This document shows, in pieces, positions 17,942-28,141 of a DNA stretch of 39,469 nucleotides. Source of the stretch: Bacteroidota bacterium (GTDB taxonomy: Bacteria > Bacteroidota > Bacteroidia > B-17B0 > Aurantibacillaceae); the NCBI GenBank assembly GCA_013297775.1, contig JAAFIL010000031.1:1-39469 (forward strand). Direction: 5' to 3'. How positions within the stretch are numbered: position 1 is the stretch's first letter; each line of letters starts with the position of its first letter. Position numbers and translations under genes: made by a program. The notes beneath the pieces were generated by a model. It was not told the origin of the DNA. It made no database searches and saw nothing but the letters and a program-made list of their open reading frames with translations.

Positions 17942-18994
17942 ATGGCAAGAAACGCATCAAATAAATTACTGCAAAAGGCCAAGAAATCGAAAAGTGATGA
18001 GTTCTACACACAGCTTTCCGATATAGAAAGTGAATTGCAACATTATAAAAATCACTTTAAAGATAAGGTGGTTTTTTGTAACTGTGATGATGCTCGCATT
18101 AGCAACTTTTTCAAATATTTTTCATCTAACTTCAAGGAATTAGGGTTAAAAAAATTGATTGCGGCTTGCTATCAAGAAAAAAAGAATGATTTGTTTAATA
18201 CTGGAGAGTCTGAAAATGGCTTTTTCTTTGAATATACAGGTAAAGAGAGTGAAACGGACAAACCAATTTCTAATGATATTATTTACTTTAAAGATGATGG
18301 CGATTTTCTTAGTCTTGAAAGTATTGAACTATTAAAGCAATCAGATATTGTAGTTACAAATCCACCATTTTCGTTGTTCAGAGAATATGTTGCTCAATTA
18401 GTAAAGTATGACAAGAAATTTTTGATTATTGGTAATATAAACGCAATTACATACAAAGAAATTTTTAAACTTATCAAAGAGAATAAAGCTTGGTTAGGAA
18501 TAAATCTTGGAAGAGGTGTTTCAGGCTTCATTGTACCTGATTACTACGAGCTTTATGGCACAGAAGCAAGAATAGATAGTTTTGGAAATAGAATAGTTTC
18601 ACCAAACAATTGCTTATGGCTAACAAACTTAGATAACTTCAAGCGACATGAAGATATTGAGCTAACAAAAAAATACTTTGGAAACGAAAGTAACTACCCA
18701 AAATATGACAATTATGAGGGCATAAACGTTGACAAAACAGAAGACATACCATTGGACTTTGGTGGATGTATAGGAGTTCCAATAACATTTCTTCATAAAT
18801 TTAATCCTGACCAATTTGAACTAATTAAATTCAGGAAAGGAAACGACGACAAAGACTTATCAATAGATGGAAAATGCCCATACTTTAGAATATTAATCAA
18901 AAATAAGCGAGCAATAAAGAACCCACAAGAAGACAGAGAGAAAGCCAGCACCCAACAGCAACTGCACGCAAGTGGGGATTCAGTACTTCTGTGA
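17942..18994 (+). CDS. ecoRIM: EcoRI-like adenine-specific DNA methyltransferase
   Basis: The protein methylates adenine in the cognate site, expected to be GAATTC, using S-adenosylmethionine. The 350-residue sequence is recognisably M.EcoRI: MARNASNKLLQKAKKSKSDE, FCNCDDARISNFFKYF, the catalytic motif IV NPPF at about 140-143 (DIVVTNPPFSLF), LGRGVSGFIVP, SPNNCLWLTNLD and GKCPYFRILIKNK. M.EcoRI is about 326 residues. The last 25 or so here (AIKNPQEDREKASTQQQLHA...) are extra and read into the left arm of an inverted repeat. It follows the nuclease by 2 bp. All visible catalytic motifs are intact, so methylation may persist although the nuclease is broken. Confidence 0.92.
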   Translation: MARNASNKLLQKAKKSKSDEFYTQLSDIESELQHYKNHFKDKVVFCNCDDARISNFFKYFSSNFKELGLKKLIAACYQEKKNDLFNTGESENGFFFEYTGKESETDKPISNDIIYFKDDGDFLSLESIELLKQSDIVVTNPPFSLFREYVAQLVKYDKKFLIIGNINAITYKEIFKLIKENKAWLGINLGRGVSGFIVPDYYELYGTEARIDSFGNRIVSPNNCLWLTNLDNFKRHEDIELTKKYFGNESNYPKYDNYEGINVDKTEDIPLDFGGCIGVPITFLHKFNPDQFELIKFRKGNDDKDLSIDGKCPYFRILIKNKRAIKNPQEDREKASTQQQLHASGDSVLL

Positions 18995-24244: not shown

Positions 24245-25390
24245 ATGCTTGGTCAAACACCCCAAATGAAGCCCTACAATAGTGTAAATTGTGGCATTGA
24301 ACAAACTAAATTGTATTTACCTCTCCTTAAAAATAAAAAAGTAGGAGTGGTTACCAATGTTTCGGGGCAACTGAAAGGGCAAAGCTGTGTAGATGTTTTA
24401 ATTAAACTTGGCGTTAAGGTTAAAAAAATATTTGGTCCCGAGCATGGCTTTAGAGGCACCACCGAAGCGGGCGAAAAAGTAAACTCGCAACGCGATAAAA
24501 AAACAGGGCTTCCTATTGTTTCGCTTTATGGCAAAACTAAAAAACCTAGTAAAGATGATTTAAAAGATTTGGATGTTTTGGTTTATGACATTCAAGATAT
24601 TGGGGTGCGTTTTTATACTTACATTTCGACGATGACTTATGTGATGGAAGCCTGCGCCGAAAACAAAAAGCAACTGCTTATTTTCGATCGTCCCAATCCC
24701 AATGGCTTTTATATAGATGGCCCTGTGTTGGAGAAAGAGTGGAAAAGTTTTTTAGGTCTTCATCCAGTACCTATTGTGTATGGCATGACCTGTGGCGAGT
24801 ATGCTCGCATGGTTAATGGCGAAAATTGGTTAAACCAAGGGTTAACTTGCTCGCTCACGGTTATTCCGCTTAGCAACTACGACCGCTGCGCCACCTACGA
24901 ATTACCCATTAAACCCTCGCCCAACATTCCTAATAGCAAAGCCGTGCTCCTCTACCCCACTTTGGGTTTGCTCGAAGGTAGCATTGCCAGTTTAGGACGT
25001 GGCACCGATTTCCCGTTTCAAATGATTGGTTACCCGAGCTACACTAGTAAAACATTTAGCTTTGAGCCCAAACCCAACGCATTAAGCCTAACGCCCAAAT
25101 ACGTGAACCAAACTTGCTATGGCTTAGATTTGAGAACCGACTCATTCTTGCTACAACACCCCAAAACCCTTCAATTAGATTGGATAAAAAACTTATTACA
25201 GGCTTGCGCTCACGATACATTTTTTGATAAAAATTTTAATTACCATGCGGGCAATGCCAGTTTAAAAGCCAATTTACTAGCTGCTCAAACGGCCGCTTCC
25301 ATTCGGAATAGTTGGGAAAAAAACTTGACTACCTTTAAAAAAATCCGAAAAAAATATTTGCTCTACCCAGATGTGGATAACTGTAAATAA
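24245..25390 (+). CDS. namZ: Exo-beta-N-acetylmuramidase NamZ (DUF1343, GH171)
   Basis: NamZ-type enzymes release N-acetylmuramic acid from the non-reducing end of peptidoglycan fragments and serve cell-wall recycling. The 381-residue sequence has the family signatures KNKKVGVVTNVSGQ, KIFGPEHGFRG, the DVLVYDIQDIGVRFYTYIST block, IFDRPNPNG, YGMTCGEYARM and EGSIASLGRGTDFPFQMIG. The N-terminus is uncertain. ATG 24245 begins at MLGQTPQ, but the codons just before it encode a hydrophobic stretch (VGFTLSLLLSLN) that looks like a signal-peptide core without an in-frame ATG close upstream. A start at an internal TTG near 24228, or a lost start codon, is possible. Confidence 0.85.
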   Translation: MLGQTPQMKPYNSVNCGIEQTKLYLPLLKNKKVGVVTNVSGQLKGQSCVDVLIKLGVKVKKIFGPEHGFRGTTEAGEKVNSQRDKKTGLPIVSLYGKTKKPSKDDLKDLDVLVYDIQDIGVRFYTYISTMTYVMEACAENKKQLLIFDRPNPNGFYIDGPVLEKEWKSFLGLHPVPIVYGMTCGEYARMVNGENWLNQGLTCSLTVIPLSNYDRCATYELPIKPSPNIPNSKAVLLYPTLGLLEGSIASLGRGTDFPFQMIGYPSYTSKTFSFEPKPNALSLTPKYVNQTCYGLDLRTDSFLLQHPKTLQLDWIKNLLQACAHDTFFDKNFNYHAGNASLKANLLAAQTAASIRNSWEKNLTTFKKIRKKYLLYPDVDNCK

Positions 25391-25468: not shown

Positions 25469-26983
25469 ATGGAAGCGCATAAAGTACGCCAAACATTTTT
25501 AGATTTTTTTAAAAGCAAACAACATCACATTGTGCCAAGCGCGCCCATGGTTGTAAAGGGCGACCCTACCCTCTTGTTCAACAACAGCGGCATGGCTCCC
25601 TTTAAAGATATTTTTTTAGGCAATGCCCCTATTAAATGGGCGCGTGTGGCCGATACCCAAAAATGTTTGCGTGTAAGCGGTAAACACAACGATTTGGAAG
25701 AAGTTGGCGTGGACACCTATCACCACACCATGTTTGAAATGCTTGGCAACTGGAGCTTTGGCGATTACTTTAAAAAAGAAGCCATTACTTGGGCTTGGGA
25801 ATTACTGACCGAGGTTTATAAAATTGATAAAAATCGTTTATACGTTACTGTGTTCGAGGGCAGTAAAGAAGACGGTTTGGCATTTGACCAAGAGGCCTAC
25901 GACACTTGGAAACAATTTATTGACCCCTCGCGCATTTTAAACGGCAATAAAAAAGATAACTTTTGGGAGATGGGCGATACGGGGCCATGTGGTCCTTGCA
26001 CCGAAATTCATTACGATGGGCGTAGCGATGAAGAACGCCAAACCGTTAGTGGTGCTTTACGCGTTAATAACGACGACCCTTTGGTGATCGAAATTTGGAA
26101 CAATGTATTTATGGAATTTGAACGCCGTGCCGACGGTTCACTCATCAAACTACCCAAACAACACGTTGATACAGGCATGGGATTTGAACGCTTAGTGCGT
26201 GTGTTACAAGGCAAATCGAGCAATTACGACAGCGATGTGTTTAGCCCACTCATTAATAAAATTGAAGAGTTAAGCGGGCATCGCTACAAACCCGAAGATG
26301 AGGCGCATCATAAAAAACAACAATTGGTTAACATTGCCATGCGGGTTATAGCCGACCACATCCGAACCATTTCGTTTAGCATTGCCGATGGTCAACTGCC
26401 AGCTAATACTGGTGCAGGCTATGTTATACGTCGTATCTTACGCCGTGCCATCCGTTACGGCTACCAATCGTTAAACTTAAAAGAACCTTTTATGTACCGC
26501 ATTGTGCCTACTTTGGCGCATCAAATGGGCGAGGCTTTTCCTGAACTCCAGGCACAAAAATTACTTATCGAAAAAGTGATTAAAGAAGAAGAAAGTAGTT
26601 TTTATAAAACCCTCGAAATTGGTTTAAAACGCATAGATCAAATTTGTATAGACACCACTACGGCCAAAAAACAAGTTGTAGATGGGAAACAAGTTTTTGA
26701 ACTTTATGACACCTTTGGTTTTCCGATTGATTTAACCAGTTTAATTGCCCGAGGCTATCAACTCAGCATTGATGAAGTGGCGTTTAATAAATACTTAGAT
26801 GAACAAAAAAATCGTTCGCGGGCGGCTACCGCTGCCGATACCGACGATTGGGTGTATGTAGGCATTACCCGCCAAGAAGCCGAAAAAACACAAGATAAAG
26901 AAACCGATTTTGTGGGCTACGATGCCTTAGAAAGAGAAACAAAAATTGTGCGCTACCGAAAAGTAAAACAAAAAAACAAATAA
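25469..26983 (+). CDS. alaS: Alanyl-tRNA synthetase, N-terminal part, ended by an in-frame TAA
   Basis: The 504-residue product carries the class II catalytic core and tRNA-recognition region of Ala[22 protein letters not shown], motif 2 around [56 protein letters not shown], and motif 3 [17 protein letters not shown]. Translation ends at TAA 26981-26983 after VKQKNK. The same frame continues without shift as QFHLVL... into the editing domain. One base change from GAA (Glu is common at this site) explains the stop. In E. coli a fragment of about 460 N-terminal residues can charge tRNA, so this piece might work alone. The stop may be a real mutation, a recoded codon or an assembly error. Confidence 0.92.
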
Positions 26984-26992
26984 CAATTTCAC

Positions 26993-28141
26993 TTGGTATT
27001 ACGAACCACGCCATTTTATGCCGAAAGTGGCGGGCAGGTGGGCGATACAGGCACGCTCGAAAACATTAACGAACGCTTAATGATTACCGATACGAAAAAA
27101 GAAAATGGTGTTATCATTCATTACTGCGATCGCCTCCCCGATAATTTAGAAGCAACCTTTATAGCTAAAGTTAATGCACTTAAACGGCAATTAACCAGTA
27201 ATAACCACAGTGCTACACACCTCATGCACGCTGCCCTGCGAGAGGTATTGGGTAAACACGTTGAACAAAAAGGAAGTTTAGTTAACGACGAACACTTACG
27301 TTTCGATTTTTCGCATTTTGCTAAAATGACTCCCGAAGAATTGCAACACATCGAAAAATTAGTGAACACCAAAATACGTCAAAACATTACTTGCGCTATT
27401 GAAGCAATGGCCATTGAAGATGCCAAAAAAACGGGTGCTATGGCTCTGTTTGGCGAAAAATATGGCGATATTGTGCGTGTTATTACCTTCGATAAAAACT
27501 ATTCGGTTGAACTGTGCGGCGGCACACATGTAAAGGCAACAGGCGAAATTGGTTTCTTTAAACTACAAAGCGAAAGTGCGGTGGCGGCTGGCATTCGCCG
27601 TATAGAAGCCATTACCAGTTTAAAGGTAGAAGACTTTTTTGATCAACAATTGCAAACCATTGATACCTTAAAAACCATTTTAAAAGGCAGTAAAGATATT
27701 GTAAAAAGTGTGAACGATTTAGTGGAGCAAAACACTGCTTTGCAAAAAGAGTTACAGCACATCATGCACGAAAAAGCAAGAGAGCTTAAAAAAATACTAC
27801 TCACCAAAGCCCAACACCAACAAGGTCTTACGAGTATTATTGAACGGGTAAATTTCAATAGCCCCGAAGAATTAAAAAATATGCTCTTCGAACTTAAAAA
27901 CGAAGTGGCCAATTGTTTTGCTGTGTTGGCGGGCGAAGTAAATGGTAAACCTAGTATTTCTATTGTTATTAGCGATAATCTTGTCAAAGAAAAAAATTGG
28001 AATGCTGGTCATATTATTCGCGAACTGGCTAAAGAAATTAATGGCGGAGGCGGTGGTCAGGCATTTTATGCTCAAGCTGGAGGCACGCATTTAGAAGGGA
28101 TAGAAAACGTACTTATAAAAGCAAAAGCACTCATCGTTTAA
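26993..28141 (+). CDS. alaS: Alanyl-tRNA synthetase, C-terminal part (editing and C-Ala domains)
   Basis: This is the continuation of alaS in the same frame, beginning at the first possible start (TTG 26993) after the internal TAA. It encodes TTPFYAESGGQVGDTG, the editing-site zinc ligands His72 and His76 (NHSATHLMH) with Cys175 and His179 (CGGTHVKATGEIG), a coiled-coil stretch (DIVKSVNDLVEQNTALQKEL), and the C-Ala domain with its GGGGGQA loop. The first nine nucleotides after the TAA (QFH) belong to the parent protein. Both parts together give a full-length AlaRS of about 890 codons. Expression as a separate chain would need reinitiation or readthrough. Confidence 0.9.
   Translation: MVLRTTPFYAESGGQVGDTGTLENINERLMITDTKKENGVIIHYCDRLPDNLEATFIAKVNALKRQLTSNNHSATHLMHAALREVLGKHVEQKGSLVNDEHLRFDFSHFAKMTPEELQHIEKLVNTKIRQNITCAIEAMAIEDAKKTGAMALFGEKYGDIVRVITFDKNYSVELCGGTHVKATGEIGFFKLQSESAVAAGIRRIEAITSLKVEDFFDQQLQTIDTLKTILKGSKDIVKSVNDLVEQNTALQKELQHIMHEKARELKKILLTKAQHQQGLTSIIERVNFNSPEELKNMLFELKNEVANCFAVLAGEVNGKPSISIVISDNLVKEKNWNAGHIIRELAKEINGGGGGQAFYAQAGGTHLEGIENVLIKAKALIV

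Follow-up and report, generated by a model that had tools for sequence, protein, structure and literature searches.

A lone in-frame stop codon in an otherwise intact, single-copy alaS gene of a Bacteroidota genome assembly

The window analyzed here, i.e., the whole stretch of 39,469 nucleotides, is contig C54 (JAAFIL010000031.1) of a 99.99% complete assembly of a Bacteroidota bacterium, which comprises 4,345,052 bases in 128 contigs. Its plus strand carries alaS, the gene for alanyl-tRNA synthetase (AlaRS), at 25469-28141, running in one frame from an ATG at 25469 to a TAA at 28139-28141 (891 codons including the final stop). The sole internal stop of this frame is a TAA at 26981-26983, codon 505; the same frame is open on either side and continues through to the normal end, which leaves open frames of 504 aa (25469-26983) and, counted from a TTG, 382 aa (26993-28141). 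A gene for a NamZ-like exo-beta-N-acetylmuramidase (24257-25390, plus strand) lies directly upstream of alaS, and a PF13651 match (5.9e-127) links the plus-strand gene at 17942-18994 to the adenine methyltransferases of EcoRI type. The features of alaS are as follows:

25469..26983, + strand: first part of alaS (504 aa), with the catalytic and tRNA-recognition domains and, according to the model strands, the predicted first editing strand; PF01411 at 5-501, TIGR00344 profile positions 1-466
26981..26983, + strand: in-frame TAA inside the gene (codon 505); GAA or GAG at this codon in same-genus relatives (frame reading, alignment, relatives' codons)
26984..28141, + strand: remainder of alaS in the same frame (385 codons plus stop), with most of the editing domain and C-Ala; PF07973 at 164-208 and PF02272 at 289-384 of that part
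26993..26995, + strand: TTG, codon 509, the first possible restart codon after the TAA and hypothetical start of a second chain; TTG there in 7 of 21 intact relatives

Judging from their profile matches, both parts are clearly AlaRS: residues 5-496 of the first part align with positions 1-466 of TIGR00344 (NCBIfam), residues 4-367 of the second with positions 484-847, and the second part further matches the remainder of PF01411, tRNA_SAD and DHHA1. Taken as a single chain, the gene thus follows the bacterial AlaRS profile along its length, in order and in frame, with its editing and C-terminal motifs kept; it differs from bacterial AlaRS by the TAA at codon 505, which interrupts the reading frame. 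A frameshift was rejected as the cause, since the frame is identical on both sides of the stop and the shifted frames close. A slippery-looking A-rich stretch (A AAA AAC) before the stop was likewise rejected, because a shift there would leave the AlaRS frame. This bears out the first-pass annotation, in which alaS was described as intact save for this codon. That annotation had offered four explanations, namely a true split enzyme, stop-codon readthrough, a second alaS elsewhere, or an assembly error, and this fourfold interpretation is partly supported by the evidence below.

Close relatives were searched in 60 genomes including the window's own. An alaS match was found in 54 of the 59 relatives, and none of the 56 matches listed contains a stop; the match crosses the stop site in 52 of the 54 (exceptions: G026 and G059). 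A class-wide search gave matches in 282 of 295 genomes, own genome included, and among the best of these that are listed, where the window's own gene does not appear, no alaS has a stop inside. For alignment, 111 loci were pooled, the window's own among them; besides the window, L045, truncated by a contig edge, and the shorter L059 and L085 were set aside. Glutamate occupies the codon-505 column in 61 of the 107 aligned sequences, some of which may be one genome present in two collections. At the DNA level, fetched for 21 same-genus genes (36 same-genus genomes were searched), the codon at this site is GAA in 14 and GAG in 7. One base change from GAA therefore explains the TAA, and the origin proposed at first sight, a single substitution in GAA, fits these codons. 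On this comparison the stop is private to the assembly. Artefact-like breaks of alaS were seen in 2 of 80 public loci, L085 and L059, neither being a lone mid-gene substitution. In L085 (Hymenobacter lapidarius draft, NZ_MDZB01000109.1) the alaS match shifts frame near residue 717, and in L059 (5870-5932; uncultured Rikenellaceae, CAMQVM010000075.1) the alaS frame stops 27 bases short of the contig end, after adapter-like letters, which we take to be translated sequencing adapter.

The whole assembly yields one PF01411 match, the one containing the TAA, and no second copy of the second part was found elsewhere in it. The genome search invited by the first reading thus gave no second alaS, and a pseudogene accompanied by a working paralogue was rejected at this level of completeness. 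It is highly improbable that the organism has an intact second alaS that was left unassembled or unbinned: the assembly is indeed split into 128 contigs and lacks some tRNA genes, but its completeness is 99.99%, both the PF01411 match and the second-part match are single, and a second copy would be unusual, with single matches in 52 of the 54 matched relatives. The two relatives with two matches are G047, in which both lie in one open frame, and G059, in which they are two pieces on two contigs. A free-standing, AlaX-like editing protein was not found in the assembly either. Apart from alaS, tRNA_SAD was matched once, in a frame of 656 codons; this frame also bears the PF00587 core and is, from these two matches, probably ThrRS.

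On a fixed tree, the tip branch leading to the window has a length of 0.2107 in the first part and 0.3719 in the second, a ratio of 1.77 compared to a pooled ratio of 1.99 for the 21 same-genus genes; because the window sits at the base of this unrooted tree, its tip branch may include a stem. In either part no other tip is as long as that of the window: the gene is diverged, but not to a greater extent downstream of the stop. Each part departs from otherwise invariant columns three times, which is within the range of the other sequences. An old pseudogene was rejected, as there is no acceleration after the stop. Since the second part evolves at a normal pace relative to the first, the lesion is either recent or not real, and selection has thus maintained the second part within AlaRS up to a short time ago, if not to the present.

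The place of the cut was examined in a structure model of the read-through AlaRS (31 sequences, mean pLDDT 82.7, pTM 0.57). The model predicts one strand at 488-501 and another at 504-511, separated by a turn of two residues, codon 505 being the second residue of the second strand. The stop would accordingly fall at the hairpin formed by strands one and two of the editing domain rather than at a boundary between domains, and strand 488-501, taken as the first of this domain, would precede it. The alignment of the second part with the AlaXM model (NF040865) begins at model position 26, which fits the absence of the first editing strand from the second part; together, strand positions and alignment place the cut within the editing domain. 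The second part resembles AlaXM in matching positions 26-230 of the 234 in the model; it differs in scoring 96.9 bits, below the cut-off of 300, in missing the model's first 25 positions, and in running on into C-Ala. Residues H580, H584, C683, H687 and G861-G863, presumably the editing and C-Ala motifs, are retained after the stop. The initial assignment of all catalytic motifs to the stretch before the stop, and of the editing and C-Ala motifs to the stretch after it, holds for these residues, but not for the predicted first editing strand, which belongs to the upstream side.

A natural split AlaRS exists in Nanoarchaeum equitans, and as a kind of enzyme the parallel drawn in the first-pass annotation is real. 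That AlaRS is given as NEQ 211-547 (PMC3655853), from whose numbers, 211 and 547, the two genes are presumably far apart, and its split is reported to lie within the tRNA-recognition domain (PMC10036535). In the window, by contrast, the parts are contiguous, in one frame and separated by one stop, and the cut lies outside the recognition domain, at codon 505 in the predicted hairpin (turn 502-503, strand 504-511) of the editing domain. The AlaRS gene is reported to be unsplit in Nst1, which is related to Nanoarchaeum (PMC3655853). Titles and abstract openings in the open-access literature gave no bacterial split AlaRS.

A two-chain AlaRS might nevertheless be made from one mRNA, if ribosomes stopped at the TAA at 26981 and in part restarted at TTG 26993, 12 bases further on, and if the resulting chains of 504 and 382 residues assembled and paired their strands so as to complete the editing barrel. 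Several observations are consistent with such a restart. The 20 bases upstream of TTG 26993 score higher than 98.2% of 2489 internal TTGs and higher than 72% of 334 putative starts, the RNA around the stop is hardly structured (z 0.12), and constraint on the second part equals that seen in intact relatives. In addition, the two-chain AlaRS of N. equitans is reported to be functional, with the second chain boosting the activity of the first (PMC10036535). However, the same place reaches the 65th-99th percentile in 21 intact relatives, with L009, L025 and L030 above the window and L015 slightly below, and 7 of the 21 also have TTG at codon 509. The start-like stretch before TTG 26993, a putative start signal for the second chain, thus has similar counterparts in intact relatives, which weakens the case for a restart; the A-rich stretch upstream of the TTG encodes the lysine-rich turn and is common to the relatives. 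Moreover, the break cuts a predicted beta hairpin, a start at codon 509 would drop most of strand 504-511, and the stop is absent from every listed relative match. A true split is therefore weakly favored by the start-like stretch and disfavored by its counterparts in intact genes and by the position within a hairpin, and we consider a two-chain enzyme unlikely. The fuller claim is distinctly unlikely, namely that a bacterium with a normal-sized genome has its sole AlaRS in two chains from one mRNA, ribosomes terminating and restarting almost at once at TTG 26993 and the editing beta-barrel being made whole in trans across the cut hairpin, so that a split synthetase would have been born by one point mutation.

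Alternatively, the nonsense mutation might be real and recent and the cell might live on the first part, a mini-AlaRS devoid of editing and C-Ala, the rest being a fresh remnant. Catalytic and recognition fragments with solved structures fall within the first part, the matches reaching residue 456. Two papers provide precedents: Tupanvirus has a natural mini-AlaRS that rescues yeast (PMC10036535), and E. coli still grows, though with a marked defect, when its AlaRS is editing-dead (C666A; PMC6918089). Like the first part, the Tupanvirus enzyme has the catalytic and recognition domains but lacks complete editing and C-Ala domains (PMC10036535); in the window, 385 further constrained codons are kept and the first part would end in a dangling editing strand. 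The comparable E. coli fragment N461, on the other hand, is reported to bind tRNA poorly and to fail in yeast rescue (PMC10036535), and no AlaX-like protein was found that could take over editing. By analogy with these cases, a cell could conceivably survive on the first part, though at a cost, and we regard this as unlikely to nearly the same degree as a two-chain enzyme.

Full-length AlaRS could also arise if UAA were read through often enough, by a near-cognate tRNA, through local context or by a suppressor tRNA. The full frame is kept and constrained, and a C, which makes for a weaker termination context, follows the stop. However, none of the 33 tRNA genes detected in the assembly, as named by ARAGORN, has a stop-reading anticodon, UAA included; this list is incomplete, being without tRNA-Ile(GAU) and tRNA-Ala(UGC). 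These two tRNAs are usual in rRNA operons and were probably lost together with unassembled ones. UAA is moreover the main stop, since TAA terminates 262 of 345 frames of at least 300 codons in a sample covering 20.6% of the assembly, and release factors of the RF-1 family are encoded without interruption: PF00472 gave three matches, two of them in release-factor-sized frames (345 and 369 codons), and all three are free of internal stops. Synthetase searches with PF00133, PF00587 and PF00152 gave 5, 4 and 3 matches, again with no stop inside. A changed genetic code was rejected on the grounds of the TAA usage and of the stop-free synthetase and release-factor matches, and a downstream structure driving readthrough was rejected because the RNA fold after the stop is not significant (z -1.19).

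The same sample of 895,301 bases, window included (372,595 bases in a first pass), was scanned for further interrupted genes by codon bias, with at least 60 codons required before and at least 50 after the stop, a design that misses near-end stops and all frameshifts. It produced 43 candidates: 29, in which an ATG is found within 10 codons, were interpreted as neighboring genes, and the 14 judged by eye consist of alaS, five anticoding or short frames and eight cases deemed adjacent genes. No second gene cut by a lone stop was thus recognized in this 20.6%, although by the rule of three about 15 further cut genes would still be allowed genome-wide. The scan speaks against general readthrough, no other readthrough gene having been recognized, and against a very poor assembly generally full of false stops, but not against a handful of errors. 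Readthrough, for which neither the tRNAs nor the RNA fold gave a supporting sign, is very unlikely.

The reading that best accommodates these observations takes the TAA for a lesion of one base, confined to this assembly, within an otherwise intact and constrained alaS. Either the consensus or the assembly would be in error at this base, or the base would come from an allele carried by a minority or short-lived lineage; the living population would make an ordinary single-chain AlaRS from this gene. alaS is essential, and its fixed loss should be lethal or severe. Because the stop is private, the gene single-copy, constrained and essential, the site a poor one for a split, and no recoding machinery was found, the base is most likely wrong or not fixed; that it does not represent the living population, as an error or as a minority or transient allele, has in our estimate a probability of roughly two in three. 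Among the four explanations first offered, the assembly error appears to fit best, but it shares this place with a rare allele, and a real recent mutation would look identical in the assembly. In favor of this reading, 358 of 8010 single substitutions in alaS would create a stop, and artefact-like breaks of the gene occur in the two public loci named above; against it, substitution errors are less usual than indels in long reads.

As it stands, the finding mainly calls for caution: when a stop in an essential gene is private to one uncultured assembly, reads are needed before any biological meaning is claimed for it. If, however, the TAA were fixed and the cells thrived, an essential synthetase would prove to be splittable by one substitution and kept working via restart, which would offer a testable first step for the origin of split synthetases.
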